Source: Campylobacterota bacterium (lineage in GTDB: Bacteria; Campylobacterota; Campylobacteria; Campylobacterales; Arcobacteraceae). From it: DNA of 57,502 nucleotides. The stretch is from the NCBI GenBank assembly GCA_003643835.1, contig QMKX01000008.1:1-57502 (forward strand), in the 5' to 3' direction. Below are positions 21,124 to 46,983 of this stretch, in pieces (position 1 is the stretch's first letter; each line of letters begins with the position of its first letter). The translations under genes were made by a program, and so were the position numbers. Under the pieces are notes generated by a model, which did no database searches, was not told the origin of the DNA, and was given only the letters and a program-made list of their open reading frames with translations.

Positions 21124-21140
21124 TCTTTCTCCTTTTTGAA

Positions 21141-21301: not shown

Positions 21302-21352
21302 CACTTCTAAAAACCTCTATGCTCATAGCTTTAGGGTAGGTTTTTAGAGGTG
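21302..21352. repeat. Nested hairpin upstream of the MOSC gene
   Basis: Outer arms of 15 bases (21302-21316 and 21338-21352, one mismatch) enclose a loop containing a second small stem, CTATG-CT-CATAG. Its right arm is shared with bases 104-121 of the window. It ends 20 bases before the MOSC start codon, so it would lie in the 5' leader or in the promoter gap between soxC and the MOSC gene. It may be a terminator, a leader structure or a mobile repeat. Confidence 0.5.
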
Positions 21353-21372
21353 GCCTAAATCTTTAGGAATAT

Positions 21373-21804: not shown

Positions 21805-21826
21805 TAAGTTTGATTTTTTGACTATT

Positions 21827-22543
21827 TTATGGCAAAGCTATCACGACATCTACTACCTTATCATCTGTATCGAGAAAACTATGACCTACATCTTTTATAG
21901 GCAGTATCGTAGTATTCAATTTTTGTTTTTGTAAATTTTTGTGAAAGTTTATACTTCTTTTTGGTGGCGATATTTTATCTTTTTCACCATACACTACGAT
22001 ATATTTTGCTTTTTTGTCAAGTTTTTTTGTATCTATTTTATCATATTTTCCACCTGCCAAGACTGCTACTTGGATGAGTTGCTTCTCTTTAGTCATAATA
22101 GTAGCTATCATAGATGCCCCTGCACTATGAGCGACTACGACAAGAGTTTTGGCTTTGTGTTTTTGTTTGAGATTTTTTAATATATTTGATATAAACTCTA
22201 AATAATCTTTGTTTTTTGTTTGTTTTTTGTCTGATATGATAGCTTTAAATTTGTTGGTCGTTGAACCACTGTATCCAGGCTGTGCTACCGCTACAACTGT
22301 TTTGTCTGTTTGCATAGATAAGTCTTGTGCAAAACTTGAGTAAATTCCTAACACATTTGCCCCCTCCTTCCACATACCGTGAAGCAACACTATCAAGCTA
22401 TCTTTTTGTTCACCAATAGCAGTAGATAACTCTATACACTCAGGTGCTATATATATGTGGTTTGGTTTTTTTTCACATTTTGACTCGATATTACTGCTAA
22501 AAATTGGCGATATAAACACCAAAACTATTAATATATTTTTCAT
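21827..22543 (-). CDS. Exported alpha/beta hydrolase
   Basis: A 238-residue alpha/beta-hydrolase with an N-terminal signal peptide (KNILIVLVFISPIFS). Catalytic elements visible are LLHGMWKEG (oxyanion side), the nucleophile Ser in VVAHSAGASM, and a late Asp and His (VYGEKDKISPP; DVGHSF). It resembles small esterases or serine hydrolases; the substrate cannot be told. Its ATGA start overlaps the stop of the rhodanese-lactamase gene, making it the last gene of a four-gene unit downstream of soxB. Confidence 0.82.
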   Translation of the reverse strand: MKNILIVLVFISPIFSSNIESKCEKKPNHIYIAPECIELSTAIGEQKDSLIVLLHGMWKEGANVLGIYSSFAQDLSMQTDKTVVAVAQPGYSGSTTNKFKAIISDKKQTKNKDYLEFISNILKNLKQKHKAKTLVVVAHSAGASMIATIMTKEKQLIQVAVLAGGKYDKIDTKKLDKKAKYIVVYGEKDKISPPKRSINFHKNLQKQKLNTTILPIKDVGHSFLDTDDKVVDVVIALP

Positions 22544-23853
22544 TGGAACTCCATTTGTCTAAAAAGCACACCGATATTTTGTCGTCCCAATTCTCGGTAT
22601 GTATCAAGGTGTTCGAAAGCTCGCATATCTATCTTGTATGCATCTGTTTGATCACCACCATCATCTATAATTTTCTGTATGCTTGATTGTAAGTGTATTA
22701 GATAATCTTTTGTGTATTTTGTAACTGTTTTCATATTTGTCACATCTCCGTGTCCTGGCACTACAATTTTAGGCTTTAGTTTAGCGAACTTCTCCCAAGC
22801 TTGAAGCCACTTTGGAACTTCGGTTATTTCAAATATCGGCAAAAGCCTTTGGTTAAATGCCAAATCACCAGCAAATATGACCTTTTGTTTGGGTATCCAC
22901 AAAGCTATGTCGCTGTGTTCGTGAGCATAACCAAAGTATCTCGCTTCAACTTTGATGCCGCCTAAATCAAACTCCTTTTTTGTATCAAAAACAATATCAG
23001 GCAACACTATTTTAGTGAAAGATAGTTTGTCTTTCATTCTGTTTGCTCTTTTTTCTAAAAATGTCTTGTCGTTTTTTTTGTTTTTTATCTCTTCTTTGGC
23101 TATTTTGTGTGCTACTATTTTAGCACCTTGCTCTTTCCAATAGTTGCTTCCAAGCATAGCATGACCTTGTGAATTTTCAAGCAGAACATATTTCACCGGT
23201 AGTTTTGTGATTTTTTTGATCTCTTCGTGCAAAGCTTTTGCCAACAAATAGTTAGCCCCCGCATTCCACACCATGACCGCTTTGTTTCCTATGACAAAGC
23301 CTAAGTTGTTGTTGTGTCCGCTGTTTTCATATGTAGATGGCGATGTCCTGCCAATTGAAGTATATATATTTTTAGCTACCTTTTTAACTTTTGAGTATAA
23401 TATAGAATTAGTATCTTTGTCAAGCGAGCTAACTGGTAGTTTGTTTTGTCTCCAAACTTCGAAGCTCTCTTTGTAGTAAAGCAAATTTTTATAACCCATA
23501 TTTTTCAATCTAACCGATGCCAAGGCACTTCTGTTGCCATTTAGGCAATGCACCACAAAAACTTCGTCCATATCTACTTCGTCGCTTATTATAAACTCAA
23601 GCTTGTCTCGTGGTATATTTATGACCTTGTTTGCTTTTATAAATCCGCCATCTTGCACTATGTCTGCTTTTGTTCTTATGTCTATTATTTTGGTGTTCGG
23701 TTTTTTAGACAATAACGATACCAAATCTTTTGTGTTTATAGTGCTACTTTCAAGTGTCTTTTGTGCTTTTTTCACTAACTTGTCTGCTTTTATTATCTCT
23801 CCAGATAAACTACTACACAAAAACATTGCTGCTATTAAAACATATCTTTTCAT
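22540..23853 (-). CDS. Rhodanese fused to metallo-beta-lactamase fold protein
   Basis: A 437-residue exported protein of two parts. A rhodanese domain (about 40-140) has IDIRTKADIVQ and Cys103 in VVHCLNGNRSA. A metallo-beta-lactamase fold domain (about 160-437) resembles SoxH-like hydrolases. In the second domain the usual HxHxDH metal motif is replaced by ENSQGHAMLG (226-235). The later motifs HEHSD (311-315), FAGD (327-330) and PGHG (366-369) are kept. Metal binding may be mononuclear or absent. Related fusions handle persulfides (glutathione persulfide dioxygenase types), so a periplasmic persulfide role is possible. I use the ATG at 23853, which shares its A with the thioredoxin-like gene's TGA. 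Confidence 0.86.
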   Translation of the reverse strand: MKRYVLIAAMFLCSSLSGEIIKADKLVKKAQKTLESSTINTKDLVSLLSKKPNTKIIDIRTKADIVQDGGFIKANKVINIPRDKLEFIISDEVDMDEVFVVHCLNGNRSALASVRLKNMGYKNLLYYKESFEVWRQNKLPVSSLDKDTNSILYSKVKKVAKNIYTSIGRTSPSTYENSGHNNNLGFVIGNKAVMVWNAGANYLLAKALHEEIKKITKLPVKYVLLENSQGHAMLGSNYWKEQGAKIVAHKIAKEEIKNKKNDKTFLEKRANRMKDKLSFTKIVLPDIVFDTKKEFDLGGIKVEARYFGYAHEHSDIALWIPKQKVIFAGDLAFNQRLLPIFEITEVPKWLQAWEKFAKLKPKIVVPGHGDVTNMKTVTKYTKDYLIHLQSSIQKIIDDGGDQTDAYKIDMRAFEHLDTYRELGRQNIGVLFRQMEFQ

Positions 23854-24266
23854 CACAAATCCTCTGCAAGAGAAACTTCATCTATAAAAGACTCTACAGT
23901 TTGAAAACCAAGCATTTTGTAGTTTTCGTTTTCATTTTTGCTGTCTATTAAAAAAATTGTTGGTATCATATTTGACTGGAATTTTTTTGGATAAGTATCT
24001 CTGTATTTATTCAATGATACAAAAATATAATTATTCATTATGAAGTTTTGTGTCTCTTTTTGATTGAGCGTTTCATTTTTCATTTTATTGCACCAAGGAC
24101 AATGCGGTGAATGTAGCATCATCATCAAGTTTTTATTTGATTTTTTTGCTTCTTTTAAAGCAATTTCGTAATTTTTATATACTTTAAACTCTTTTGCCTG
24201 AACTACTGACAACAATACCAATGCAAAAAATAATACAAAAGTTTTTTTAAAATGGCGTGATATCAT
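23853..24266 (-). CDS. Periplasmic thioredoxin-fold protein (SoxW-like)
   Basis: A 137-residue protein with a signal peptide and a thioredoxin fold. The redox motif is CPWC (56-59) in LHSPHCPWCNKM, and the cis-Pro region is MIPTIFLID. Proteins of this kind (SoxW, DsbD-linked thioredoxins) keep SoxY or other periplasmic thiols reduced. It overlaps the DsrE-like gene by 20 bases and is followed by the rhodanese-lactamase fusion, so it belongs to a sulfur-handling unit. No DsbD/CcdA electron donor is seen in the window. Confidence 0.86.
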   Translation of the reverse strand: MISRHFKKTFVLFFALVLLSVVQAKEFKVYKNYEIALKEAKKSNKNLMMMLHSPHCPWCNKMKNETLNQKETQNFIMNNYIFVSLNKYRDTYPKKFQSNMIPTIFLIDSKNENENYKMLGFQTVESFIDEVSLAEDL

Positions 24267-24687
24267 ACCAACCTCCTGCTACTTTTTCAATCACTTGAGC
24301 TATACCTGCTTGCACATACGATATATCTTTTATGAAATCTTTTTTCTTCCAGTGCATACTATCCATAGTGTTGATACATCCTACAAACTCTACACCATAC
24401 TCCATAACAGATTGAATTCTTGAGAGTGTTTTTTTGTCATAATCCTTTTTTATAGCCCTCATACCTTTTGCATATACCACTACGACTATATTTAAAGTTG
24501 TATCAGGATATATTTTCAATACATTGTTTATGGTGCTTAAGGTTTGATTTACCTTATCTATATCATCTGTGTTTAGTTTTATGAGCCACTTTCGTGGATT
24601 TTCAAACGATGGTTTAGGTTCGCTAAACTCCATCTTGGCAAATAACGATACTGCGAGTATTAAAACTACAATTAATTTTTTTAACAT
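24247..24687 (-). CDS. Periplasmic DsrE-like protein
   Basis: A 146-residue protein with a signal peptide (KKLIVVLILAVSLFA) and a DsrE/DsrF-like fold: WLIKLNTDDIDKVNQTLSTINN, then NIVVVVYAKGMRAI, then the loop VEFVGCINTMDS that holds the only conserved Cys. Cytosolic DsrE proteins carry sulfur on such a Cys; the role of the exported version is not established. It starts the accessory operon, separated from soxB by a terminator-like hairpin. Confidence 0.82.
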   Translation of the reverse strand: MLKKLIVVLILAVSLFAKMEFSEPKPSFENPRKWLIKLNTDDIDKVNQTLSTINNVLKIYPDTTLNIVVVVYAKGMRAIKKDYDKKTLSRIQSVMEYGVEFVGCINTMDSMHWKKKDFIKDISYVQAGIAQVIEKVAGGWYDITPF

Positions 24688-24724
24688 ATTTTATTCCTTT
24701 TTATTTTTTTGAAAAATAACATAT

Positions 24725-24772
24725 TTTCCAAAAAAATAAAACCGACCAAGAAGTATAGCAGATACCTCTTGG
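24725..24772 (-). terminator. Intrinsic terminator after soxB
   Basis: Arms 24746-24756 and 24762-24772 (11 bases, one mismatch) form a stem that, read on the minus strand, is followed by a T-rich tract (TTTTATTTTTTT). It lies 19 bases past the soxB stop and before the DsrE-like gene, so it likely ends the main sox transcript or lowers readthrough. Confidence 0.75.
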
Positions 24773-24790
24773 ATTTAAGTTATTTTTCTC

Positions 24791-26554
24791 TTAATATATA
24801 CCCGGATTACCTTTTATTCCTATCATATCTGGCGTATCTATTTTTAGATTTTTTATATGTTTGACATCTTTTAAATATGTAACTACAGTCTCCCATATAG
24901 GCTCGCCGTCTGATTTACCATTGACCGTTGACCAGCCAGCTACTTTATACATTTTATTTGGCTCTATAGCTTTGCCATTGCTTAATTTTAAGTTTGTAAT
25001 TCGTTTGCCAAAACCTTTTTTAGGTTCAATTGTATATGATACTCCGCCAGTTCTCACCATATCACCACCTTGTTGATAAAACGGATCTGGGTTAAATAGA
25101 TTGTCCGCCACATCTTCTAGTATCTCTTTGACCAAACTACCTTTCATAGGTCGAATGTATGTTTCAGCATATGTCATAGCAGTTTGTGTAGCTATATCAT
25201 CAAATGTTATATTGTGTCCTTTAGGCACAGATACACCCCACCTAAAACCAGGACTCAAAGATATATCAGCACCCTTTACTACTCTCAAAGCATCACAGAG
25301 CACTTGGTCAAAACTGCCATTGAAATTTCCTCGTCTATACAAAGTATCATCAGTGGTTGCTATGATTTCGTTTAATGTTTTTTCATATGGTTTTCGCACC
25401 TTGTCTACATATGCTTTCATCTTTTTGTCTTCTGGTATTAGGTCTGAAAATATTGGCAACAATGTAAACTTAAAGTCTTTGATTTTGCCTTTTCTTATAT
25501 CTAAGTCAAGAACATTTAGAAACTTACCGTTGCTGCCTGCATTGCAAACATAGGTTAGACCTTTTTTGTTTTTCACAGGCACTGCTTCAGGCACACCGTC
25601 GTGTGTATGGCCGCCCATTATAAAGTCAATACCGCTTACTACATTTGCTAGCTTTTGATCTACATCAAAACCATTGTGCGAAAGAAGTATCACGGCATCT
25701 GGTTTCTCTTTTTTCTCTATCTTGTCTACTATTGCTTGGAGCTCATCTTGTTTGATACCAAAAGTCCAATCTGGTATAAATCTTTTTGGATTTGCTATAG
25801 TAGTATAAGGGAATGCTTGCCCAATTACCGCAACTCTAATACCTTTTAGTTTTTTGATAGTATATGGCTTAAATGCCAATCCACTATCTTCGTCATATGC
25901 TGGGCTTCCATCAAACAAGGCATCCTCTTTTACAAATACATTTTGTGCTAAAAACTCTGCGTTTAATAGTTTTATATTTTTATGTATTTCTGCTGCTTTG
26001 TATGTAAACTCCCAGTGTCCTACACATATATCAACTCCCAACTCGTTCATGGCACCCACCATATCTTGACCTCTTGTTTGAAGTGAAGTCCAACTTCCCT
26101 GCCAAGTATCACCACCATCCATAAGCAAAGTTTTCTCTTTGCCGTAGCTCTGTCTTAGATAATTTACCACAGTTTGCAGCTGTGCAAAACCGCCTACTTT
26201 GCCCATAGCTTTTGAGTGTTTTTCAAAATTCACACAACTATAAGCATACTCAAGTCGTTTGTTACCTTTTATACCATAATAGTCAAGCAACTTATCGCCT
26301 ACTATATGTGGTGGTTTGCCATAGTTTTCATGAAATCCAAGATTTACACTAGGTTCTCTAAAATACACTGGTTTTAGCTGTGCATGGCAATCTGTCATAT
26401 GCATCAATCTTACATTGCCAAATGGCTTGAGTTTATAATAATCTTTTAGTTTGTTTTTAGTTGCTGGCATTCGTCTATGTGATTTTGCAAATACTGGAGC
26501 AGAACCAAGCACTGCCATCATATATACAAACTCTCGTCTTCCCATTTTTGTCAT
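24791..26554 (-). CDS. soxB: Thiosulfohydrolase SoxB
   Basis: Dimanganese enzyme that hydrolyses the terminal sulfonate from SoxY-bound cysteine S-thiosulfonate, releasing sulfate. The 587-residue protein begins with a Tat signal (GRREFVYMMAVLGSAPVFA) and has the 5'-nucleotidase-like metallophosphatase motifs: MTDCHAQL (D55, H57), GGDTWQGS, VGHWEFT and GGHTHDG. The C-terminal nucleotidase-type domain follows. It is the last gene of the main sox operon but is separated from the preceding gene by a 400-base stretch of repeats and hairpins. Confidence 0.96.
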   Translation of the reverse strand: MTKMGRREFVYMMAVLGSAPVFAKSHRRMPATKNKLKDYYKLKPFGNVRLMHMTDCHAQLKPVYFREPSVNLGFHENYGKPPHIVGDKLLDYYGIKGNKRLEYAYSCVNFEKHSKAMGKVGGFAQLQTVVNYLRQSYGKEKTLLMDGGDTWQGSWTSLQTRGQDMVGAMNELGVDICVGHWEFTYKAAEIHKNIKLLNAEFLAQNVFVKEDALFDGSPAYDEDSGLAFKPYTIKKLKGIRVAVIGQAFPYTTIANPKRFIPDWTFGIKQDELQAIVDKIEKKEKPDAVILLSHNGFDVDQKLANVVSGIDFIMGGHTHDGVPEAVPVKNKKGLTYVCNAGSNGKFLNVLDLDIRKGKIKDFKFTLLPIFSDLIPEDKKMKAYVDKVRKPYEKTLNEIIATTDDTLYRRGNFNGSFDQVLCDALRVVKGADISLSPGFRWGVSVPKGHNITFDDIATQTAMTYAETYIRPMKGSLVKEILEDVADNLFNPDPFYQQGGDMVRTGGVSYTIEPKKGFGKRITNLKLSNGKAIEPNKMYKVAGWSTVNGKSDGEPIWETVVTYLKDVKHIKNLKIDTPDMIGIKGNPGIY

Positions 26555-26571
26555 AAATATCCTTTTTCAAT

Positions 26572-26841
26572 TTTTGTCTCGTTCGTGCTCCTTGACTTGA
26601 GATATGAAATCTGTGTCAATTCCGCTACTTTGGTCGTATGCGAGTTGCTTCATTTTTTTGTCTCGTTGTTGTCTCACTCGTGCTATCGCTTGACGGATAC
26701 ATCCGTCTGTGCTCCCTAACGAGTGCTCGCAGTGTTTTGCTCGTGTTTTGTCTCGTTCGTGCTCCTTGACTTGAGATATGAAATCTGTGTCAATTCCGCT
26801 ACTTTGGTCGTATGCGAGTTGCTTCATTTTTTTGTCTCGTT
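26572..26841. repeat. 96-bp direct repeat pair between soxB and soxA side
   Basis: Bases 26572-26667 and 26746-26841 are identical over 96 positions, with a repeat period of 174 bases. The spacer has related short words (GTCTCRTTCGTGCT-type). On the minus strand the array is open for 86 codons, because the period is a multiple of three, giving a peptide in which one segment occurs twice. That peptide has no recognisable fold and no ribosome site. The region is less AT-rich than the flanks. I treat it as a repeat, not a gene. Confidence 0.85.
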
Positions 26842-26872
26842 CCGTGCTATAGACAAGTTTTGTGTTTTTGTT

Positions 26873-26913
26873 TTAACCAATGTATAATCTTAATAAGATT
26901 ATACATTGGTTAA
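26873..26913. repeat. Perfect 20-bp-arm palindrome in the sox operon
   Basis: Bases 26873-26892 are the exact inverse complement of 26894-26913 around a single A. In RNA this is a 20-bp stem with almost no loop, or a cruciform in DNA. It is only about 40 bases past the end of the small sox-operon gene and before the repeat pair. No U-tract follows on the minus strand. It may protect the upstream soxCDXYZA mRNA or block readthrough into soxB. Confidence 0.8.
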
Positions 26914-26914
26914 G

Positions 26915-26948
26915 TTTATAAACAGGGGTAAAAACCTCTGTTTATAAA
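26915..26948 (-). terminator. Second hairpin downstream of the small sox-operon gene
   Basis: Arms TTTATAAACAGGGGT (26915-26929) and the complementary ACCTCTGTTTATAAA region (ending 26948) pair with one G-U-type mismatch around AAAA. It lies next to the perfect palindrome, giving two hairpins in a row within 80 bases. The type is uncertain: attenuator, processing site or terminator. Confidence 0.5.
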
Positions 26949-26954
26949 ATATGG

Positions 26955-27359
26955 TTAAAACTTATAACCATCTCCTGGTATTGATAACTTGTATGTTTTT
27001 TGTGCTTCTTTTGCTTGTGTCAATGATGTTATAGCAAAATGACAAGCTCTTTGGGCTGCATAGTTTACATCAAGTTTTGTTTTTGACTTGTCTTTACCCT
27101 TGAAGTGCATAGGTTGAACTGTTTTTTCGCCGTTTGCCACAGCATCTTCTACTGCTTTGATTAGGTCTGTATTGTTTACATTTAGTCGCCTAAACTCCAC
27201 ACCTTTTGCTTTAGCTTCTTTGTTATGAACTTTTGCATAGCCAACAACTTTGTCTATACCCAACTTTGCTACATCACACTGTTTGTTTACATTGTGAGCA
27301 AAACTGTTTGTAGCCCAAACTAAAGTTATCGCTGCAAATATTTTTAATAAATTTTTCAT
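26955..27359 (-). CDS. Small periplasmic protein in the sox operon (SoxK-like?)
   Basis: A 134-residue protein with a signal peptide (KNLLKIFAAITLVWATNSFA). The mature part has two Cys (KQCDVAKLG and QRACHFAI) that could form a disulfide; CH is present but no CxxCH haem motif. It sits directly after soxA, the position where some sulfur oxidisers carry soxK/SAXB, a SoxAX-binding subunit. I cannot confirm that relation from sequence, so the name is a guess from location and size. Confidence 0.7.
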   Translation of the reverse strand: MKNLLKIFAAITLVWATNSFAHNVNKQCDVAKLGIDKVVGYAKVHNKEAKAKGVEFRRLNVNNTDLIKAVEDAVANGEKTVQPMHFKGKDKSKTKLDVNYAAQRACHFAITSLTQAKEAQKTYKLSIPGDGYKF

Positions 27360-27369
27360 ATATATACTC

Positions 27370-28293
27370 CTATTTTCTTATGTCTGGACCATCGATTTTC
27401 ATACCATTTGACATATATGCCATAAAGTACAAAAGCTCTCTCATCTCTTTGCTATCTGCTTTTGGTGGGACTTGTCCCTCATCTTTGATACAGCCTTCCA
27501 TTCGTCTCTCCAAAGTCCCAAGACCATCTGAAGTTTTGCTCTTGGCACCCCATTTTAGCCTATACACTGGAAAGTGTGTCGCATGTCCCAATAGTTGCGA
27601 CAAACTTTCATTTCTCACTCTTTGACCTGCTCCTTGGACATGACACGAAGCACATGAAAGTTTTAGATAACCTCTTTGACTATAATAATATTTTTTGCCT
27701 CTTTCATAAGCTTGTTGTGCTTTTTTTGAGTTTATTTTTATATCCATATTTTTGTCCGCTTGCTTGGTTTGGTCAGCAAAATATGCTTCTATGTGTGTTA
27801 TCTTACCTTTTTTCAAATTTAGTTTCTCTTCACCTGCTTTGACTACACAATCATTTATAGCTACACTCAAAGTCACTACTTTGCCTGTTTTATCGTCAAA
27901 ATATGGATAGTTTCCACCTATTTTGGTATCTGGAAAACACTTTTTAAGTGCTTCGCTGTTTTTATAAATATCTTCACCTTTTTCTATAAACTCTTCGTAT
28001 GGTGGCATCTCTTTTATCTCATCGTATTGCACTTTGCCTTGCTTTGAAAATGCATAGTTGCCTATAGCAAAATCATGGTGTTTTAAACCTTTTGTTATGT
28101 TTTCTTTCAACTCTTTGTCCGTTGAGTATGGAAAAAACTGATTTCTATTTTTTTCTGGGTCTTCAAACTTAGCTTCAAAATACTTCACGAGTGCTTTCCT
28201 ATCTTTTTCTGCTTGTTTATCATATTTACCTGCATTTGATACAACTGCAAATATTGTCAAAACCATAAACAATTTTATCATTTTTGATAACAT
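27370..28293 (-). CDS. soxA: SoxA, monohaem catalytic cytochrome of SoxAX
   Basis: SoxAX links thiosulfate to the SoxY carrier cysteine. The 307-residue protein has a signal peptide and one haem motif, CASCH (214-218). The Cys ligand of the active-site haem is Cys268 in RRMEGCIKDEG. The N-terminal domain, which holds a second haem in dihaem SoxA proteins, here has Cys119 and Cys149 but no CxxCH, so it is the monohaem type. It lies between soxZ and the small putative SoxK-like gene. Confidence 0.95.
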   Translation of the reverse strand: MLSKMIKLFMVLTIFAVVSNAGKYDKQAEKDRKALVKYFEAKFEDPEKNRNQFFPYSTDKELKENITKGLKHHDFAIGNYAFSKQGKVQYDEIKEMPPYEEFIEKGEDIYKNSEALKKCFPDTKIGGNYPYFDDKTGKVVTLSVAINDCVVKAGEEKLNLKKGKITHIEAYFADQTKQADKNMDIKINSKKAQQAYERGKKYYYSQRGYLKLSCASCHVQGAGQRVRNESLSQLLGHATHFPVYRLKWGAKSKTSDGLGTLERRMEGCIKDEGQVPPKADSKEMRELLYFMAYMSNGMKIDGPDIRK

Positions 28294-28324
28294 ATATTCT
28301 CCTTTTTATTTTTTAGATATTTAT

Positions 28325-28627
28325 CTATTTTGCTATTCCGTCACTTGAGTTAGTGCCACCAAGTATATCTACCCATTTGATAGTGATTTTATCACCTTTT
28401 TTGCCTTTGTATTTAAACTTCAAAAATGGATCTTTTGAAAAAAATTGTGAGCTACTAATTTCATACACGATTTTTCCATCAACTTGTGCTGTTAGATGTG
28501 TTATGAAGTTTTGTTTTACTTTCAATTTTTTTGCTTCTATGCTACTATGCATTGGGTGTTTAGCTAAAGCCATCACTGTTACTACGCCATCTTTTTCTTT
28601 TGCTTTTATTCTAGTTTTACCTGCCAT
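28325..28627 (-). CDS. soxZ: Sulfur-oxidation protein SoxZ (copy 2)
   Basis: Partner of SoxY in the sulfur-carrier dimer. The 100-residue protein shares the family pattern: TRIKAKEKDGVVTVMALAKHPM, NFITHLTAQVDG, VYEISSSQFFSKDPFLKFKY and the DKITIKWVDILG end. It differs clearly from copy 1 at 17871-18176 (for example a longer polar tail NSSDGIAK), so the duplication is not recent. It follows soxY after 45 bases. Confidence 0.95.
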   Translation of the reverse strand: MAGKTRIKAKEKDGVVTVMALAKHPMHSSIEAKKLKVKQNFITHLTAQVDGKIVYEISSSQFFSKDPFLKFKYKGKKGDKITIKWVDILGGTNSSDGIAK

Positions 28628-28672
28628 ATTTTTTCCTTTTATTATATTTTATTTTGTTGTTTTGGTTTATTG

Positions 28673-29122
28673 TCAACCGCCACAACCACCTTTTGTAACT
28701 TTAACTAATTTTTTATCTGTGTAAAGCTTTCCATCTGATTCGACTACTGCTGTAACTGTTCCTGTTTTTTGCATCTTTATTCTAAGTGAATAATCCACAA
28801 CTCCACCAGCTGGCACAGTCCATACTGCTACTGCTGCTTCTGGGTTTGAGTCTTGATATAAAGATACCGTTGTAGCACTTAAATCAGAGCTTATAGTGAT
28901 AGGCACTATAGCTCCATTTTCTGCTATATCTGGGGCTTTTAATTTTACTTTGCCTTGTGTAGTTGAGCTACTTCCATACAACCCCTCTATAGCTTTTGAT
29001 ACATCTTTTTCCAACCATGCTTTTTCTTTGGTTTTTCTAAAATCCACTGCGCTTAAGCTGACAGGCAAAACTGTTGCTGCCGCAACTCCCAATCCTATTT
29101 CTATAAAATTTCTTCTATTCAT
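28673..29122 (-). CDS. soxY: Sulfur carrier SoxY (copy 2, GGCGG tail)
   Basis: SoxY with the canonical carrier arm: the 149-residue protein ends in KGGCGG. A Tat signal is present (NRRNFIEIGLGVAAATV). It is in the operon holding soxX, soxA and soxB and is therefore the likelier partner of SoxAX and SoxB, whereas the GGCEG copy is next to the other soxCD. Confidence 0.95.
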   Translation of the reverse strand: MNRRNFIEIGLGVAAATVLPVSLSAVDFRKTKEKAWLEKDVSKAIEGLYGSSSTTQGKVKLKAPDIAENGAIVPITISSDLSATTVSLYQDSNPEAAVAVWTVPAGGVVDYSLRIKMQKTGTVTAVVESDGKLYTDKKLVKVTKGGCGG

Positions 29123-29134
29123 ATTGTTTCCTTT

Positions 29135-29491
29135 TTAATTTATTGTCTTAAGATATGCCACAAGTGCATTTATCTCATCTTTACTCAACCAACCACTTTT
29201 TCCAAATGCAGGCATTTGTGATATTGGGTTTGTCGTATATGGGTCATATATTTTGTCATACAAAGCTTTTTCTGGCCATGCTGACAACGACACAAGTTTA
29301 GGTCCCATGCTTCCTGGTCCCATCTTTTGTATATCTTCTTTTCCATTTATGTCATGGCAAGCTATACAATTTCCTAAAGTTTTTGTTTTAAACAACTCTT
29401 CACCTTGCTTGACTAGATCATTTGATAAACCCATGGTCGCTACTAAACCACTAATAGTTAATACTATTGGCAACTTTTTAAATATATTCAT
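29135..29491 (-). CDS. soxX: SoxX, monohaem cytochrome of SoxAX
   Basis: Electron-accepting subunit of the SoxAX complex. The 118-residue protein has a signal peptide and one haem motif, CIACH (42-46) in LGNCIACHDING. The Met ligand is probably in SQMPAFGKSGWLS, and it ends in a typical class I helix (ALVAYLKTIN). It lies between soxD and soxY in the main sox operon and is the only SoxX in the window. Confidence 0.93.
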   Translation of the reverse strand: MNIFKKLPIVLTISGLVATMGLSNDLVKQGEELFKTKTLGNCIACHDINGKEDIQKMGPGSMGPKLVSLSAWPEKALYDKIYDPYTTNPISQMPAFGKSGWLSKDEINALVAYLKTIN

Positions 29492-29507
29492 ATTTTCTCC
29501 TTTTTGT

Positions 29508-30611
29508 TTATTTGCTATTTTCTATCATATATTTTATGATATTTTCCATCTCTTCGTTTTTTAAATCCATAGCACCCCCTTTTGGTGGCATAGCCCCAAT
29601 ACCATTTATGGCATTGTTTAGCACTTTTTTAAAATCTTTTTTTACTATCTTTTCCCAATCTTGTTTTTCCCCAAATCGTGGTGCTCCAGCTACTCCATCA
29701 TCGTGGCATCCTGCACACGAAGCTTCATATTTGGCTTGTCCTGGATTATTTGAGCCTGCTTTTGGTTCTATTTTGCCATAGTAGTGCCTCTCTTCGCCAA
29801 ATTCAGGTTCGACTGTGGTCGCATCTACTTTGATACGGTTTATAACTGTTTTGCCTTTGATACAGTTTTTCATACATCTTTTGTTTTTAGTGTCTGGCAC
29901 TCGCAAATTGTTGTATGCAAAACCTTTTTCATTTGGCATTTTAACAGCTTTTAAAAATTTAGCATCTATTATCGTGTCATCTTCTATCTCCTTATCGTTT
30001 ACTTTTATCTCATTTACCTGAAGCAAATAACCGATTATTCCATAAGTATCGCTATTTGACAACGATTTAGGAGCAGACAAAGGCATAGCTGTTTGTATAT
30101 ACCAAAATATAGGTGCTACATATGGCATATAACTACCAAATGTCTTAAGCGGACCAGGGTCCCCTCCTGATGCAGGTTTTAAATTCAAAGTTTCTTGTCC
30201 GCCTGATAGTATAGGAAATCTTCCAACACCTTCACCAAACTCACCATGACAAGAAGCACACTTCAAACTATAAACTTCAGCACCTTTTTCTACTGACATT
30301 TTTCCCTTTGGCAAACCTTTTCCATCGGGTCTCACATCTGTGTTCCAAGCTTTTGATTGTTTTTTAGTTGCTTTTTGTCCAAGAGAGAAACCTTTAGCTG
30401 AATATGGTGAATGATAAACATGTTTGACTTTGAAATTTTTTGGCTTTTTTATGGCTCCGTCCACGTTTATCTTGTTGCCTTTTTTGTCTTTTGTTTCGCT
30501 TGGATACGGGTATTTATCTGGGTTAGCAGGGGTATGCCCTTTTGCAAACACAATAGTGCTTGACAATAACAACAAAACTAATATATATTTAACTTTCGTA
30601 TATGTGAACAT
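29508..30611 (-). CDS. soxD: Dihaem cytochrome SoxD (copy 2)
   Basis: Second SoxD, 367 residues, with a signal peptide and haem motifs CASCH (118-122) and CAGCH (299-303), plus the AMPPKGG ligand region near the end. It shares the non-haem RCMKNC pair with copy 1. Sequence identity with copy 1 is only moderate outside the haem and core motifs, so they are old paralogues or separately acquired. The start overlaps soxC copy 2 by 23 bases, exactly the arrangement of the other pair. Confidence 0.93.
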   Translation of the reverse strand: MFTYTKVKYILVLLLLSSTIVFAKGHTPANPDKYPYPSETKDKKGNKINVDGAIKKPKNFKVKHVYHSPYSAKGFSLGQKATKKQSKAWNTDVRPDGKGLPKGKMSVEKGAEVYSLKCASCHGEFGEGVGRFPILSGGQETLNLKPASGGDPGPLKTFGSYMPYVAPIFWYIQTAMPLSAPKSLSNSDTYGIIGYLLQVNEIKVNDKEIEDDTIIDAKFLKAVKMPNEKGFAYNNLRVPDTKNKRCMKNCIKGKTVINRIKVDATTVEPEFGEERHYYGKIEPKAGSNNPGQAKYEASCAGCHDDGVAGAPRFGEKQDWEKIVKKDFKKVLNNAINGIGAMPPKGGAMDLKNEEMENIIKYMIENSK

Positions 30612-31920
30612 TGTTTACCTCCCCGTTTGATTTTACTTCCCAAGTTTGTATTGCATTTCTATGATATATTCCCTCTTTGCCGCGTGCATTGTTTAGTTGT
30701 GTGGCAGTAGGTTGCGTGAAGCCCGTATCATCGGTAGCTCTACTTTGGATCATCATAGAATTTTTATTCCATTTTGTTTTAAAGGCAAACCTTGTGACAG
30801 CCTTAGGTAGTTGCATACTTGTAAATTGAGCCAGCTTCCAAGTTTTACCACCGTCTATTGATACATCAACAGCAGTGATAGTTCCTTTACCGCTCCAAGC
30901 AATACCCTCTATCATGATGAACCCTCGTTTTTTATCTCGCCAATCTCTCTCGGGGCATGGTGAAGTTATAACACTATTTGCACTAAAAGCCCAGTTATAC
31001 ATCAATGCATGTCCATCTTTGGTTAGCATAGTGTATTTGGTGCTCTCTTCACGCACCATCCATGATTTAGTATCAAACTTAAGTCGTCTTAGCCATTTTA
31101 TCTGCATCACTCCTTCCCAACCCGGCAAAAACAACCTCACAGGATAACCCTGTTCTGGTCGCAAAGCTTCGCCGTTTTGTGCATACACAAGTATGGCATC
31201 GTCAAGAACCTTTTCTATAGGTATAGACCTACCGACACCAGCAGGGTCAGAGCCTTCTGGAAACATCCATTTCGCACCTTTTTTAAGCCCTACATCCTCA
31301 AGTATAGTTCGTAAAGGCACTCCAGTAACTTCACTACAAGCCAACATACCGTGTGTTGCTTGAAGTGAATTTAAGTTCGCACCTCTCCACTCCATACCAT
31401 TGTTAGCAGCGCACTCAAACGAATGAATAACCGACACACTAGGGTATCGTTTGATATCTTCAAGTGTCAAGATGATATCCTTTTTTACCAGTCCATGTAT
31501 AAGCAACCTATACTCTTTTGGATTTATGTCTATTACCCCTCCATGGCACCTCGTAAAGTGTAGGCCATTTGGCACTATTATACCTTTGAGGTCTTGCCAC
31601 GGTGTGAAACTAACAGATGCCTTCTTATCAGCAGTGAGCCATGGCACTTCACGGCGAACAACATGTTTTTCAAACTTCGATGGAGACCCATATGGGTCAT
31701 GATTTGTATCTCGTCCCCATTTTAGTCCCCAAGCAGGGTTGTTTGGTGGAAGATTGTTTTTATCTATTTTGTATTTTGCATTGGCGTTTGTAGCTATACC
31801 ACCTAACGAAGCTATAGCTGCTGTTGAAAGAACTACACCTTTTTTTAAAAACTCTCTTCTTTTTGTCTGTGGATCAACCGTATTTATATTTTCAATTAGC
31901 TCATCTTTTTTTATTTTCAA
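30589..31920 (-). CDS. soxC: Molybdenum sulfane dehydrogenase SoxC (copy 2)
   Basis: Second SoxC, 443 residues, with a Tat signal (TKRREFLKKGVVLSTAAIA) and the Moco Cys at the same residue number, Cys170, in SFECAANNGMEW. LRPEQGYPVRLFLPGWEGV and SIDGGKTW are kept. It starts at a TTG preceded by a perfect AGGAGG six bases away, which decides the start. It heads the operon soxC-D-X-Y-Z-A-(small)-B, so all enzymes of the complete Sox pathway are in one transcription unit. Confidence 0.95.
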   Translation of the reverse strand: MKIKKDELIENINTVDPQTKRREFLKKGVVLSTAAIASLGGIATNANAKYKIDKNNLPPNNPAWGLKWGRDTNHDPYGSPSKFEKHVVRREVPWLTADKKASVSFTPWQDLKGIIVPNGLHFTRCHGGVIDINPKEYRLLIHGLVKKDIILTLEDIKRYPSVSVIHSFECAANNGMEWRGANLNSLQATHGMLACSEVTGVPLRTILEDVGLKKGAKWMFPEGSDPAGVGRSIPIEKVLDDAILVYAQNGEALRPEQGYPVRLFLPGWEGVMQIKWLRRLKFDTKSWMVREESTKYTMLTKDGHALMYNWAFSANSVITSPCPERDWRDKKRGFIMIEGIAWSGKGTITAVDVSIDGGKTWKLAQFTSMQLPKAVTRFAFKTKWNKNSMMIQSRATDDTGFTQPTATQLNNARGKEGIYHRNAIQTWEVKSNGEVNNVHIYES

Positions 31921-36791: not shown

Positions 36792-37532
36792 TTATTTTCC
36801 AGATACTGTTTTTCCTGTAAAATCAATGATACCAGATGTATAGTTTGATACTTTTTTCCAGCCTAAATCCTTGAGCATCTCTTGACAATAAACACTTCTG
36901 CTACCTGTTAAACAATACAGCACTATATTGTCTTCTTTTTTATCTTCTATACAAGAAAGCGACTGATAAAATGTCGTAGTAGGCACTAAATAATCCGTTC
37001 CTTCTATTCTGTTGTCTTCGTATTCCATATACTCTCTCACATCAACCAAGCTAAACTCTACAAAACCCAATGCCCTAGCTTCAAGCAGAGACTCTATCTC
37101 GTGAGAATCGAGCTGTTCAATCTTAAGTAGTGCTTCGCACTCATCCTTTGTCAAACCGCGCGAGTGTGTATGCGATACTTCCAAAGCTTTCTCTTTGATT
37201 GCATTTTCTTTTGTATACTCTTGTGTGCAAAATATACCACAATGACACTTTCCATCATTTGGTATCTCTTTTTCTATAGCTGGCTTACAAGGACATATTC
37301 TATTGTCTGCTTTTTTTTGTTCCTCTTTGGTTTCACCTTGGACCATAAAACACGGACAATATCTTTTGTTATATATAATTTTATTTCGTGCTAATCCCAT
37401 AGTCACACCTTCGTTTACCTCTTCTATAGGGTTATACACCCAACCAAAAGATTCGCAAACTTTGTCTGTAAATTTGCCTGTTTTTTCCAACTCTGTTTTG
37501 AACTCTTGTGAGTTCATATCTATTTTTATCAT
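36792..37532 (-). CDS. Ferredoxin-thioredoxin reductase-type Fe-S domain fused to rhodanese
   Basis: A 246-residue cytosolic fusion. The N-terminal part resembles the catalytic chain of ferredoxin:thioredoxin reductase. Its motifs are CPC (59-61), CPC (80-82) and CHC (96-98), supplying the four [4Fe-4S] ligands and the active disulfide. The spacings (18 and 13 residues) are longer than the classical 16 and 8. The C-terminal part (about 150-246) is a rhodanese with VDVREYMEYEDNRIEGT and Cys207 in LYCLTGSRS. It could reduce persulfide or thioredoxin using ferredoxin, but partners are unknown. No FTR variable subunit is seen. It follows the lipoprotein gene by 9 bases. Confidence 0.87.
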   Translation of the reverse strand: MIKIDMNSQEFKTELEKTGKFTDKVCESFGWVYNPIEEVNEGVTMGLARNKIIYNKRYCPCFMVQGETKEEQKKADNRICPCKPAIEKEIPNDGKCHCGIFCTQEYTKENAIKEKALEVSHTHSRGLTKDECEALLKIEQLDSHEIESLLEARALGFVEFSLVDVREYMEYEDNRIEGTDYLVPTTTFYQSLSCIEDKKEDNIVLYCLTGSRSVYCQEMLKDLGWKKVSNYTSGIIDFTGKTVSGK

Positions 37533-37541
37533 AATTTCTCC

Positions 37542-38036
37542 TCAGAACTGTTCGTATAATATATTTGCTGTTATGTTTTCATCTATTTTTATCCATTTTA
37601 AATGCAACTTATCATTGATTGTGATATTTATATCATCTTTTGCTACTTCAACTATAAAATAATCAGCCCAACTATTTTTTATAGGCAAACTTTCATAAAG
37701 CGAGCTGTTTTTGTGCAACTTTGTCAGATTTATATCTTCATAATCATTGATGGTGAGCTTATATTTGCTTTTGTTATTTTCTTCATCGACCTTATAAAAT
37801 CCTATAGCAAAATGAAAGATATTATCGTCCCATTTGACACTGGTTTGGTTTAGATATGTAGATATCATAAAAGCTTTTATGGTATTGTTGTTTTCTATTA
37901 TATCTGCTTTTTTTGTGTTTTGTATCAAGCTTTGGTAATCTTTCGTAGAATCAAAAATATAGTTTACGAAGCTATTGTTTGAGCTACAAGAAACAAATAA
38001 AAGAACGGCAAAAAAGAGAACTATATACTTGGTCAT
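37542..38036 (-). CDS. Small lipoprotein, unknown function
   Basis: A 164-residue predicted lipoprotein; the signal peptide ends at FVSC (14-17). The mature part is rich in Asn, Asp and Lys with beta-like stretches such as FHFAIGFYKVDEE and WADYFIVEVAKDDINITI. I recognise no family. It is immediately downstream of thrC on the same strand (6 bases), followed by the Fe-S/rhodanese fusion. Confidence 0.75.
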   Translation of the reverse strand: MTKYIVLFFAVLLFVSCSSNNSFVNYIFDSTKDYQSLIQNTKKADIIENNNTIKAFMISTYLNQTSVKWDDNIFHFAIGFYKVDEENNKSKYKLTINDYEDINLTKLHKNSSLYESLPIKNSWADYFIVEVAKDDINITINDKLHLKWIKIDENITANILYEQF

Positions 38037-38042
38037 AAACTT

Positions 38043-39515
38043 TTAGACAAACTTTATGATATGCTTGTCTATATCCTCTTTTTCAATAATATCTTTATGT
38101 ATTATCTCTTTTTGCCACAGCTGTTTTATAGCCATATTTGTTTTGTTTTTAATTATACTTGATATTATATCTATCGCCTCTTTGTCGCTATATGCTATGT
38201 CGTCATTTTGTATTGCATTTAAAACTGTTGTAGAAAATTTTGACCACACTGCTGTGCTTGACAAAACTATCTTTTTATCTGTTTTAAACTCTTGATATGC
38301 CTTGATGCATGTAGCTGTATGCGGATCCATAAGATAACCGTCATCAAAATAGTTCTTGATTGTTTGTTTCGCAAACTCATCATCACAACAGGTGGCTTTA
38401 AATACTTTTTGTATTTGTTGTTTTTCATCAGATGTCAATACAAATATATTGTTTTTATTTAGATTTTCCATAAGTTCTTTTGTCCTATCACACCCAAACA
38501 TATCAAAAAGCACCCTCTCTATGTTTGAGGATTTTAGTATATCCATAGCTGGAGATGTTGTTTGTATCAATTTTTTGTCTCTTATGTCATATATGCCATC
38601 ATTTATAAACTGCGTTAATATATTGTTTTGATTTGAAGCTACGAGTATATTGTCTATATTTAAACCCATCTTTTTAGCATAATATGCTCCTACTGCATTG
38701 CCAAAATTTCCCGATGGAATACATATGTCTATGTATTCGTCTTTTGTTATTTGATTTGTTTTGACAAGTTGCAAATAACTGTATATATGGTAAACTATTT
38801 GAAATAAAATTCTACCAAAATTCACACTATTTGCGGCGCTTAAACTTGTAGATGTTTTTGATAATCTTTTTTTAAAATCATCGCACTCAAGAAGCCTTTT
38901 CAGAGCAGTTTGTGCATCATCAAATGTTCCTTTGATTCCAAGCACTTTTAGATTCTTTCCACTCATTGTTGTCATTTGAAGTCGCTGGACATCGCTCGTG
39001 CCGCCAGCTGGATACAAACAAACTACTTTTATATTTTCTTTATTTTGAAAGCTATGAAGTGCTGATGGTCCTGTGTCGCCTGAAGTAGCTACAAGTATGA
39101 TGTATTTTTGGTTTTTTCTTTTTGCAAGCGCTGACAATATAAAGCCAAAAGGCTGTATAGCCATATCTTTAAATGCTCCTGTAGGTCCATGATACAGCTC
39201 ACAACTATATAGATTTTCATCTATTTTTACTATAGGAGCTGGGTTGCTTGCGTCATCAAACTTATCATAAAGAGCTACGGCTTCTTCTATATCGGCTTTT
39301 TCTATATCTATATCAAACTTTGTAATTATAAACTTTGTTAACTTTTTGAAACTTTTGTTATGAAACTCTTGCACAAAATTTTTATCTAATTTTGGTAGTT
39401 TTGCAGGACTATAAAGTCCACCATATGAAGCCAAAGGGTTAAGTATGGCTTCGCTAAATACTACTTCATTTGGTCTGTTTTTTTGCGAACCTCTTGTAGA
39501 TATAAACTTTGTCAA
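38043..39515 (-). CDS. thrC: Threonine synthase
   Basis: PLP enzyme forming threonine from O-phosphohomoserine. The 490-residue protein begins with ISTRGSQ and has the PLP-Lys motif GPTGAFKDMA, VATSGDTGPSA and SGNFGNAVGAYYAKKMG. Length fits the longer (proteobacterial) ThrC type. It starts at a TTG within a TTGA overlap on the nuoN stop. Translation is thus coupled to the end of the complex I operon, an unrelated metabolic link. Confidence 0.95.
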   Translation of the reverse strand: MTKFISTRGSQKNRPNEVVFSEAILNPLASYGGLYSPAKLPKLDKNFVQEFHNKSFKKLTKFIITKFDIDIEKADIEEAVALYDKFDDASNPAPIVKIDENLYSCELYHGPTGAFKDMAIQPFGFILSALAKRKNQKYIILVATSGDTGPSALHSFQNKENIKVVCLYPAGGTSDVQRLQMTTMSGKNLKVLGIKGTFDDAQTALKRLLECDDFKKRLSKTSTSLSAANSVNFGRILFQIVYHIYSYLQLVKTNQITKDEYIDICIPSGNFGNAVGAYYAKKMGLNIDNILVASNQNNILTQFINDGIYDIRDKKLIQTTSPAMDILKSSNIERVLFDMFGCDRTKELMENLNKNNIFVLTSDEKQQIQKVFKATCCDDEFAKQTIKNYFDDGYLMDPHTATCIKAYQEFKTDKKIVLSSTAVWSKFSTTVLNAIQNDDIAYSDKEAIDIISSIIKNKTNMAIKQLWQKEIIHKDIIEKEDIDKHIIKFV

Positions 39516-40996
39516 AACCCGCTAATCCCTACATAATAACCAATAAACTCCAAAAGAGGATCAATAAACAGCACAGATACTGTAGTTATGATAGCTGATA
39601 TACCTATGACTGATTTGAGTGTGGTATTTGCATTGCCCATGACTACTATATTTGTATCTTCTACTTTGTCTTTTAGGAACATAAAAACAATAAGCTTAAG
39701 ATAATAATACACCGCAATAGCAGAATTTAGAGCCATAATTATCGCTAATACGAGCTCATCTGCGCTTATAGTGGCGCCTATTAGATACATCTTTCCCCAA
39801 AACAAACTAAAAGGTGGCACACCAGCAAGAGATAACATAAACAAACCCATGATTGATGCCGTTATTGGTGAAGTCTTCACCAAGCCTGCGAACTTTTCAA
39901 ATGGATGCCCATCGCCAAATTTTTTGTCTTTTTTTCTTCTATGCACCCATAAAATTGCAAATGCTCCAAGATTTGTAAATAAAAAAAGTATCCAATACAA
40001 AAACAGGCCTTCAGTTGCACGTGTCGTGCCTACAAGCACCGCTACCAAAGCAAATCCTGCATGCGAGATAGATGAATATGCCAACATTCTTTTGATATCT
40101 GTTTGAACCAATGCTATCATATTTGGCACAGTCATAGTAGCTACGATGATAAAATACAATAAATAATACACAAATGTGTTTTCGACCAATATAAAAATCT
40201 CAAAAAATCTCAAAGCTACGACAAACCCAGCTATTTTTGGCACAATTGATATAAATCCAGCAAGTGCTGCACTTGAACCTTCATATACATCTGGAGCCCA
40301 GATATGAAATGGCACCAAAGTAAGTTTAAAACCAAGTGCCGCTACTATAAATACGGTGCCTATCAAAATATATGGATAGTTCGCAAATCCAGATGAAACA
40401 AAAACTTCGGCCATTTTGCCAAGCTCTACTGTGCCTGATACGCCATAAAGCACCATAGAACCAAAAGCAAAAAATGCAGTCGCCAGCGCTCCTAATGTAA
40501 AATACTTTATAGCTGCTTCAATTGATTTAGAGCGGTTATGCATAGCTATTATGGTATATATAGCCATAGATGATGTCTCAATACCTACAAATATGAGTAT
40601 CAAGCTATCAGAACTTACCATAAACTGAAAACCAGCTACCATAAACAAAAATAAAGCAAAATACTCAGGGTATCTGTATTCGTGAAATCTTGACTGAGAC
40701 AAAGCAAGCAAGACAAACAAAGCAGAACCTACGAGTATAATAGCTTGTGCCAATAAAGATATGCCATCTACTAACATCAAATCAAAAAATCCGCGAGTAT
40801 CGTTGCTATATGTCAAAACAACAGCCAAATCAATCATCAAAAACATAATTGTCATCATCACATAAAATGACTTATGTAGTTTGTCTGTGATTAGGTCTAT
40901 AGTTAATATCGTCAATGCCCCAAAAATTGTGACAATCATAGGCAAAATTGTTAGCACATTTAACTGTTCAAAAGATATAGAAATAGGTTGTATCAT
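39512..40996 (-). CDS. nuoN: NADH-quinone oxidoreductase subunit N
   Basis: Proton-pumping antiporter-like subunit of complex I. The 494-residue protein has about 14 hydrophobic segments. Conserved elements are the proton-path Glu in FVGIETSSMAIY, FKLTLVPFHIWAPDVYEGS and IKRMLAYSSISHAG. Its ATG overlaps the nuoM stop (ATGA). Last of the nuo genes; thrC is coupled to its end. Confidence 0.95.
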   Translation of the reverse strand: MIQPISISFEQLNVLTILPMIVTIFGALTILTIDLITDKLHKSFYVMMTIMFLMIDLAVVLTYSNDTRGFFDLMLVDGISLLAQAIILVGSALFVLLALSQSRFHEYRYPEYFALFLFMVAGFQFMVSSDSLILIFVGIETSSMAIYTIIAMHNRSKSIEAAIKYFTLGALATAFFAFGSMVLYGVSGTVELGKMAEVFVSSGFANYPYILIGTVFIVAALGFKLTLVPFHIWAPDVYEGSSAALAGFISIVPKIAGFVVALRFFEIFILVENTFVYYLLYFIIVATMTVPNMIALVQTDIKRMLAYSSISHAGFALVAVLVGTTRATEGLFLYWILFLFTNLGAFAILWVHRRKKDKKFGDGHPFEKFAGLVKTSPITASIMGLFMLSLAGVPPFSLFWGKMYLIGATISADELVLAIIMALNSAIAVYYYLKLIVFMFLKDKVEDTNIVVMGNANTTLKSVIGISAIITTVSVLFIDPLLEFIGYYVGISGF

Positions 40997-45358: not shown

Positions 45359-45982
45359 TTAATACGATAATGGGGTTTTTTCGATTTTGTCATCGGCATC
45401 TGGTGATACCGCTCCAAAACCATCGTATTCTACTTGTGTGCTTAGTTTGTCAAGTGGTGTCAAGAGATCATCTTTTATCACAAAATGCTCTCGTTGTTCG
45501 CTGACATTTTCATATCTACCACCGTGAACTATAGCAAGTTCAGGACAAACTTCAGCACAATAACCACAAAATATACATCGGCCTAAGTTTATACTATATT
45601 CGCTTACTTCTTTTCTGTGGTTTTTGTCTATTTTTGTGTCCATCTTGATACAGTTTGCTATACAAATTTTCTCACACAATCCACACCCTATACATCTGTT
45701 TTCGCCACTTTCAAGAAGTCCCAGTATCTTATGCACTGCTCTATATCTGCTACTTACTGGTAGTTTCTCTTGTGGATATTTCAAAGTGTGCATCTGTCTT
45801 TTGAACAATGCTTTTAGCATAATACCAAATGTGATTTTTAGTCCGCCAAACAACTCTGTGCCAAAACCGCGCTTAACAACTTGTTTAAAATGCTGCATTG
45901 GTGTCGTAGGATAGTCATCTATAGCGATATGTATGTATTCGCTATTTCCTATGTTTCTATCGTTTGTTTTATCTATATTCAT
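45359..45982 (-). CDS. nuoI: NADH-quinone oxidoreductase subunit I
   Basis: Carries clusters N6a and N6b leading to the quinone site. The 207-residue protein has two 4Fe-4S motifs, CIGCGLCEKIC and CIFCGYCAEVCPE, preceded by the family region FKQVVKRGFGTELFGGLKIT. I start at the ATG at 45982 behind AGGAG; an upstream in-frame start would overlap nuoH heavily and add 39 residues not found in the family. Confidence 0.95.
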   Translation of the reverse strand: MNIDKTNDRNIGNSEYIHIAIDDYPTTPMQHFKQVVKRGFGTELFGGLKITFGIMLKALFKRQMHTLKYPQEKLPVSSRYRAVHKILGLLESGENRCIGCGLCEKICIANCIKMDTKIDKNHRKEVSEYSINLGRCIFCGYCAEVCPELAIVHGGRYENVSEQREHFVIKDDLLTPLDKLSTQVEYDGFGAVSPDADDKIEKTPLSY

Positions 45983-45990
45983 AATATCTC

Positions 45991-46983
45991 CTATATCAAC
46001 ATCATCACAAAACCGGTGATGAGTATATTCACGATAGCCAATGGCATCAACACTTTCCAACAAAACCACATAAGCTGATCTGGTCTTATGTGTGGCCAAG
46101 ATGCCCTAGTCCAAAGGAACAAAAATATCAAAAAACCAACTTTTAGTAGTATGGCAACCCAACCGGGTATAAAAGCCCAGTCGTTGTATCCACCTAAAAA
46201 TATCAAAGCAGTTAAAAATGATACAGTAAACAAATTTGCATACTCGCCTATAAAAAACATACCCCATCGCATACCGCTATACTCTGTAGCATAACCCGAT
46301 ATCACCTCTGCTTCGTGTTCAAGCAAATCAAATGGTGTTCTATTTGTTTCAGCATAAGCAGCTATCAAAAACAGAAAAAATGCCACAGGTTGTGTCCATA
46401 TAAGCCAACTAAAAAATCCTCCGCTTTGATAGTCGTTTATATCTATAAGCGATAAACTACCTACAAGCATGATAGGAGCCAATATAGACAATCCAGTGAC
46501 AACTTCATAAGACAACAATTGTATAGCTGTTCTGGCGCCTCCCAGCAGTCCCCATTTGTTTGCTTGTGCCATACCACCAAGTAAAGGACCATAAAGTCCA
46601 GTAGCCATAGCACCCAATACAAAAAGTAATCCTACATTGATATCTGCTATGATTGGGCGAACAGTATAACCCATAACTTCAAATTGTGGAAAAAATGGCA
46701 CTGCCGTCATAGCTATAAATGCTGTTGCCGCAGTGATAACTGGTGCTATCATAAATATAGGTCGCACTGCGTTTGCTGGCACAAAATCCTCTTTGGTAAA
46801 TAGTTTGATACCGTCTGCAAGTATTTGTATGACACCAAATGGACCCACATGTGTAGGACCCAATCGTCTTTGCATAAATGCCAGAATTTTTCTTTCAATA
46901 TATGTCGTAAATCCAGCAAGTGCAGAAAACACAAGTAGCACTACCATCACTTTTGCGACTGTTTCTATCATATAACTATCCAT
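45991..46983 (-). CDS. nuoH: NADH-quinone oxidoreductase subunit H
   Basis: Membrane subunit forming much of the quinone-binding chamber. The 330-residue protein has ERKILAFMQRRLGPTHVGPFG, QILADGIKLFTKED, AETNRTPFDLLEHEAEVISGY and RASWPHIRPDQLM, all typical. It lies 3 bases after nuoG. Confidence 0.96.
   Translation of the reverse strand: MDSYMIETVAKVMVVLLVFSALAGFTTYIERKILAFMQRRLGPTHVGPFGVIQILADGIKLFTKEDFVPANAVRPIFMIAPVITAATAFIAMTAVPFFPQFEVMGYTVRPIIADINVGLLFVLGAMATGLYGPLLGGMAQANKWGLLGGARTAIQLLSYEVVTGLSILAPIMLVGSLSLIDINDYQSGGFFSWLIWTQPVAFFLFLIAAYAETNRTPFDLLEHEAEVISGYATEYSGMRWGMFFIGEYANLFTVSFLTALIFLGGYNDWAFIPGWVAILLKVGFLIFLFLWTRASWPHIRPDQLMWFCWKVLMPLAIVNILITGFVMMLI

Follow-up and report, generated by a model that had tools for sequence, protein, structure and literature searches.

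The locus described here raises the question of what a ferredoxin–thioredoxin reductase (FTR)-type catalytic domain does when it shares one polypeptide with a rhodanese. FTR chemistry is known for the link between ferredoxin and thioredoxin. Neither domain is new, and parts of the FTR–rhodanese protein already receive labels from annotation pipelines; no paper that describes the fusion or reports experiments on it was found in the open-access literature searched. The gene lies in a window of 57,502 nucleotides (the whole stretch of DNA that was analysed) and is read on the minus strand, a point absent from the first-pass annotation of this DNA; a plus-strand reading of 36792–37532 is ruled out by several stops in frame. 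The features of the locus are the following.

37542–40996, minus strand: upstream co-directional genes for NuoN, threonine synthase and a small lipoprotein-like ORF, from gene ends and Pfam
37538–37542, minus strand: AGGAG, resembling a ribosome-binding site and overlapping the stop of the gene upstream (37542–38036)
36792–37532, minus strand: whole ORF of 246 amino acids with an ATG start, comprising FTR catalytic domain, linker and rhodanese; 65 fused relatives aligned
37179–37493, minus strand: FTR catalytic (FeThRed_B) domain, residues 14–118; PF02943, fold match to 1dj7 and 7pwe
37350–37358, minus strand: C59-P-C61, invariant and aligned to solved FTRs
37287–37295, minus strand: C80-P-C82, invariant in 65/65 fused and 44/44 FTR-only relatives
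37239–37247, minus strand: C96-H-C98, both cysteines invariant in the same 65/65 and 44/44
37227–37229, minus strand: Cys102, the seventh cysteine, within CHCGIFC, invariant in 65/65 and 44/44
37059–37178, minus strand: linker, residues 119–158, with the invariant His123 and an HSRGLTK motif
36819–37058, minus strand: rhodanese domain, residues 159–238; PF00581, solved rhodaneses being the top fold matches
36912–36914, minus strand: Cys207, the rhodanese active-site cysteine in the CLTGSR loop, conserved in 65/65 fused proteins and 14/14 separate rhodaneses

Pfam recognises two domains only on the ORF protein, FeThRed_B (PF02943, E 2.7e-35, 121 bits against a cut-off of 22; E 6.0e-36 for the same protein in the profile search of the genome) and Rhodanese (PF00581, E 5.8e-11, 43.2 bits against a cut-off of 22.2). 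This agrees with the first-pass annotation, which had read an FTR-like domain from CPC, CPC and CHC motifs (C59PC61, C80PC82 and C96HC98) and a C-terminal rhodanese with Cys207, found here in the C207LTGSR loop. The six-cysteine CPC/CPC/CHC pattern of the FTR family, with its four ligands and two redox cysteines, is present. By analogy with FTR, Cys59, Cys80, Cys82 and Cys96 would be the cluster ligands, and Cys61 and Cys98 would form the redox disulfide, the former as its attacking and the latter as its cluster-side cysteine. The spacing had been noticed at first sight to be longer than in classical FTR, and it is: the protein has CPC-X18-CPC-X13-CHC, against spacers, counted in alignments, of X16/X8 in plant FTR (7bzk) and X14/X12 in the proteins of Methanosarcina (4tpu) and Desulfotalea (7pwe). 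The longer second spacer is thus a trait of the non-photosynthetic FTR-like reductases and not a defect. An FtrB-type selenoprotein was considered and rejected, with 61.5 bits against the NF041072 cut-off of 160, no in-frame UGA and an open frame.

The AlphaFold2 model, built from 49 sequences, has a mean pLDDT of 91 and a pTM of 0.67, so that the domains are well predicted and their mutual arrangement is not assured. In Foldseek searches, rhodaneses rank first, followed by FTR 1dj7 (28% identity, TM 0.66 by target length); the matches also include 7pwe, the Desulfotalea glutaredoxin/ferredoxin disulfide reductase fusion, and, among rhodaneses, those of the persulfide reductase 6pfz, of Bacillus anthracis CoADR-RHD and of the persulfide dioxygenase–rhodanese 5ve3. 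The condition under which the first-pass annotation would have given up its reading, a model in which the cysteines could not form an FTR-type cluster, did not arise: the domain matches 1dj7 and 7pwe by fold, and the six cysteines align with those of solved FTRs.

The reading that is favoured here, tentatively and with chances a little short of even, is that the protein may be a cytoplasmic, single-subunit, ferredoxin-dependent persulfide or polysulfide reductase. Thiosulfate, polysulfide or a low-molecular-weight persulfide would donate sulfane sulfur to Cys207, giving Cys207-S-SH; in Npsr, likewise, the rhodanese cysteine is thought to take up sulfane sulfur first (PMC7969121). The reduced Cys61/Cys98 pair would then attack this persulfide, or one relayed via Cys102, giving HS- and a Cys61–Cys98 disulfide. 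The putative [4Fe-4S] cluster on Cys59, Cys80, Cys82 and Cys96 would reopen the disulfide with two electrons delivered singly by reduced ferredoxin, as in FTR, whose chemistry consists of cleaving disulfides by ferredoxin electrons with cluster assistance (PMC9025218, PMC7278568). The likely purpose of the enzyme would be twofold in an autotroph that oxidises sulfur, produces reduced ferredoxin and has no detected sulfite reductase: sulfide would become available for the synthesis of cysteine and Fe-S, and reactive sulfane sulfur would be held at a low level.

The first-pass annotation had seen no variable subunit near the gene, and the absence extends to the whole genome. In this genome (1.43 Mb, 96% complete), profile searches find a single FTR-B gene and no FTR variable subunit (PF02941), of which the control search finds one in Synechococcus. 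A heterodimeric photosynthetic-type FTR is thus ruled out, as no PF02941 partner exists anywhere in the genome, and the protein has the FTR-like domain without variable subunit that is expected of a single-subunit ferredoxin:disulfide reductase. The genome also encodes a TrxB with CATC (CxxC) and GGGDTA motifs (C6:42248-43165, L126), which, together with the lack of a variable subunit, argues against a chloroplast-type FTR role. This TrxB carries YRGDKFRA at the place where E. coli-type TrxB has HRRxxFRA, and its pyridine-nucleotide preference may differ from that of the E. coli type.

These data bear on a second explanation, that the protein acts on thioredoxin or on protein disulfides in general, as an FDR-like ferredoxin:disulfide reductase; the rhodanese would then serve for docking or sensing, and persulfide chemistry would be secondary. 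It gains from the standalone FTR domain, which keeps all seven cysteines, from the relatives 4tpu and 7pwe, whose accessory domains are different ones (the title of 7pwe names it a ferredoxin disulfide reductase fusion), and from the known reduction of thioredoxins and disulfides by FTRs and FDRs (PMC7278568). It is nevertheless rather unlikely, as a TrxB-like match is present in 296/296 genomes surveyed, the source genome included (235 of them above the curated cut-off), and as the rhodanese cysteine and its loop are invariant in both fused and separate proteins, a constraint for which a module used for docking alone would have no need.

The genome encodes ATP-citrate lyase as well as two POR-type oxidoreductases, and in three Arcobacter-type loci the fusion lies 138–209 nt behind oorDABC, the ferredoxin-like and POR subunits of which were confirmed; the link of the protein to carbon-fixation redox is contextual and consists of these observations. 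The NIR_SIR domain of sulfite reductase has no match in the genome or in its congener, and there is one weak PF01507 match in the genome. Many genomes that carry the FTR–rhodanese do have sulfite reductase, so that its lack does not explain the presence of the protein, and a general rule by which the protein is needed where sulfite reductase is missing was dropped, the argument being confined to the present genome.

Relatives for the conservation analysis came from two sources, 298 genomes of the class and a set of named genome contigs, with scan patterns aimed at close relatives. In the alignment, Cys59, 61, 80, 82, 96, 98 and 102 are invariant across the fused and FTR-only relatives, and the linker His123 is unchanged in 65/65 fused proteins; the first-pass annotation had mentioned neither the invariant Cys102 and His123 nor the conservation across the class. 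Cys26, Cys132, Cys194 and Cys216 vary among relatives, Cys216, the second rhodanese-domain cysteine, being conserved in 36/65 fused relatives and missing from every separate rhodanese. An equivalent of Cys102 is not present at that place in plant FTR, 4tpu or 7pwe in the alignment. PF02943 is found in 100/296 genomes of the class (about a third) and in most surveyed families; of two families of numerous small genomes, which are taken to be of Campylobacter/Helicobacter type, it occurs in one genome of the first and in none of the second. On these sequence comparisons, conservation of the gene is wide among the free-living bacteria related to Campylobacter. A close relative (54% identity) on a metagenome-assembled contig labelled Fibrobacter succinogenes (L071) is probably from a mislabelled or mixed bin.

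The two domains occur in several arrangements. The fused form is found in Arcobacteraceae, Sulfurimonas, some Sulfurovum and other families. The split form consists of neighbouring genes on the same strand, mostly 3–57 nt apart, in many Sulfurovum-type loci, and FTR and rhodanese are annotated as separate genes in Sulfurovum mangrovi. Since the same two domains are close same-strand neighbours in Sulfurovum, their pairing appears to be functional and not a mere gene fusion; the coupling of a reductase to a sulfurtransferase, suggested at first sight, is thus supported by the split neighbour genes as more than one fusion event. The FTR domain stands alone in Hydrogenimonas, Nitratiruptor and Nitratifractor, and the FTR-only versions without neighbouring rhodanese in Hydrogenimonas and Nitratiruptor keep Cys102, so that the FTR domain must have a use independent of the rhodanese. 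A tandem form, FTR followed by FTR–rhodanese, is found in one family, mostly beside glnB/amtB-like genes, with ORFs of about 100 residues without assigned function and a DUF7897 gene downstream. At the tandem loci L112:2223-3285, L113:2338-3391, L114:2247-3309 and L116:2726-3780 the standalone FTR overlaps the fusion or lies just upstream of it; L113 has an extra rhodanese.

In a fifth form, the FTR domain is followed by a C-terminal domain that is weakly TusA-like (Pfam E 0.0096, below cut-off; UPF0033 structure 3hz7, E 0.077). These paralogues have CHCALFG, with no cysteine at the place of Cys102. The lineage is seen in other genomes of the class (L117:1975-2595, L118:2284-2943, L119:2197-2871 and L120:2238-2882), and its TusA/UPF0033-like domain of about 100 residues apparently lacks the usual cysteine (LDTRGxPxDxRRxLPVPD); it is possibly another fusion of FTR to a sulfur carrier. 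The FTR-domain tree is poorly resolved (few columns, weak support), the fused, split and standalone states each needing several state changes on it. Besides one Pseudanabaena rhodanese, a plasmid search matches nothing but the split pair on a Sulfurovum plasmid. In Sulfurovum mangrovi (NZ_CP087125.1, L128) the split genes lie beside dapE, gatC and pilT on a 395-kb 'plasmid', which may be a chromid or a mis-assigned piece of chromosome.

The gaps between NuoN, threonine synthase, the small lipoprotein-like ORF and the FTR–rhodanese are −4, 6 and 9 nt, and the complex I genes beyond NuoN extend to 49380; the short gaps and the AGGAG site over the upstream stop make co-transcription with the end of the complex I genes likely. 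In a promoter and terminator scan, promoter-like sites were no more frequent than in shuffled sequences. Within the complex I region, a NuoI-like ORF with a TTG start (45359–46099) overlaps a NuoH-like ORF (45991–46983) by 109 nt, so that the true NuoI-like start is probably further downstream. Flanking ORFs of the relatives, clustered all against all, gave no conserved sulfur-gene neighbourhood; they are mostly housekeeping genes (argG, rplI, hslUV, dapE) and vary.

Downstream, after a gap of 172 nt, lie argH, moeA and queC, the last two on the same strand as the fusion gene. The closeness of moeA and queC is what would favour a role as a biosynthetic sulfur donor (for tRNA thiolation, molybdopterin or Fe-S), in which the FTR domain only resolves the turnover disulfide, and the rhodanese does score against ThiI_C-, MoeB/MoeZ- and PspE-type models, always below the cut-offs. 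Such a donor is nonetheless improbable, given that argH and the gap separate the gene from moeA and queC, that the gene order is not preserved in relatives, and that Cys216 has the patchy distribution described above.

Elsewhere in the window, at 16887–31920, two SoxCD/SoxYZ-like clusters and a UshA/SoxB-like gene are seen, their sulfur-oxidation assignments being made by eye, and this part also holds a tandem-rhodanese protein (16887–17723) and a rhodanese–metallo-beta-lactamase protein (22540–23856). One could place the protein within sulfur oxidation, the rhodanese gathering cytoplasmic sulfane sulfur and the protein passing sulfur or electrons to energy metabolism. The probability of this is very small: the nearest sox-like gene is about 5 kb away, the linkage in relatives is to housekeeping genes, and ferredoxin is a poor electron acceptor for persulfide oxidation. 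The further rhodaneses in the window and the two sox-like clusters speak for it, as does the rise on S0 of two rhodanese-like genes in Sulfurovum indicum (PMC10045233), which have not been matched to the FTR–rhodanese family.

Reduction of persulfide or polysulfide by ferredoxin is the reading retained here, in the tentative terms given above. It draws on both domains with their invariant cysteines and their repeated linkage, on the fold matches to FTR (1dj7 and 7pwe) and to the rhodaneses of 6pfz, CoADR-RHD and 5ve3, on the separate FTR lineage with its weakly TusA-like sulfur-carrier domain, and on the POR-type oxidoreductases, the ATP-citrate lyase, the proximity to oorDABC and the missing NIR_SIR match. 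The FTR-only versions, the carriers with sulfite reductase and the housekeeping neighbourhoods count against it. A broader proposal, possible rather than probable, is that the family may form a new class of FTR-type ferredoxin:persulfide oxidoreductases, iron-sulfur enzymes which would draw on low-potential ferredoxin to turn rhodanese-bound persulfide into sulfide with Cys102 as a relay and would be widespread in fused, split and tandem forms in chemoautotrophic Campylobacteria. If persulfide reduction is indeed its role, ferredoxin electrons would enter sulfur handling directly in Campylobacteria, which dominate many sulfidic habitats, and the retention of a single FTR gene by a chemoautotroph without detected sulfite reductase would be explained. 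The protein is small and directly testable by standard assays.

Compared with known systems, the protein has in common with the FTR catalytic subunit FTRC (PF02943; 1dj7, 2pu9, 7bzk) the six-cysteine pattern and the fold, and differs from it by the lack of a variable subunit, the longer spacers, Cys102, the C-terminal rhodanese and the TrxB already in the genome. With 4tpu (deposited as a rubredoxin) and 7pwe it shares an FTR-like domain fused to an accessory domain, which is here a C-terminal rhodanese and in those proteins rubredoxin or glutaredoxin; its third motif is CHC, whereas theirs is CYC. FtrB_double_U selenoproteins (NF041072) share the FTR-B homology, and the present protein has Cys at all positions. 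The single-domain rhodaneses PspE (2jtq), GlpE (1gmx) and HP1203 (2k0z) have the same fold and active loop, unfused to a reductase. Npsr and CoADR-RHD (6pfz, 3icr) present the same order, with the reductase domain first and the rhodanese, which has its catalytic cysteine, at the C-terminal end, but the reductase in them is large, works with NAD(P)H and depends on FAD/CoA, in contrast to the FTR-type Fe-S domain of about 12 kDa found here. The FTR–rhodanese protein has no Pfam match to a pyridine-nucleotide-disulfide reductase (FAD/NAD(P)H) domain, and only its rhodanese part matches Npsr and CoADR-RHD. We infer by analogy that Npsr would be its closest functional counterpart, with an FTR-type Fe-S disulfide site in place of the flavoprotein module.
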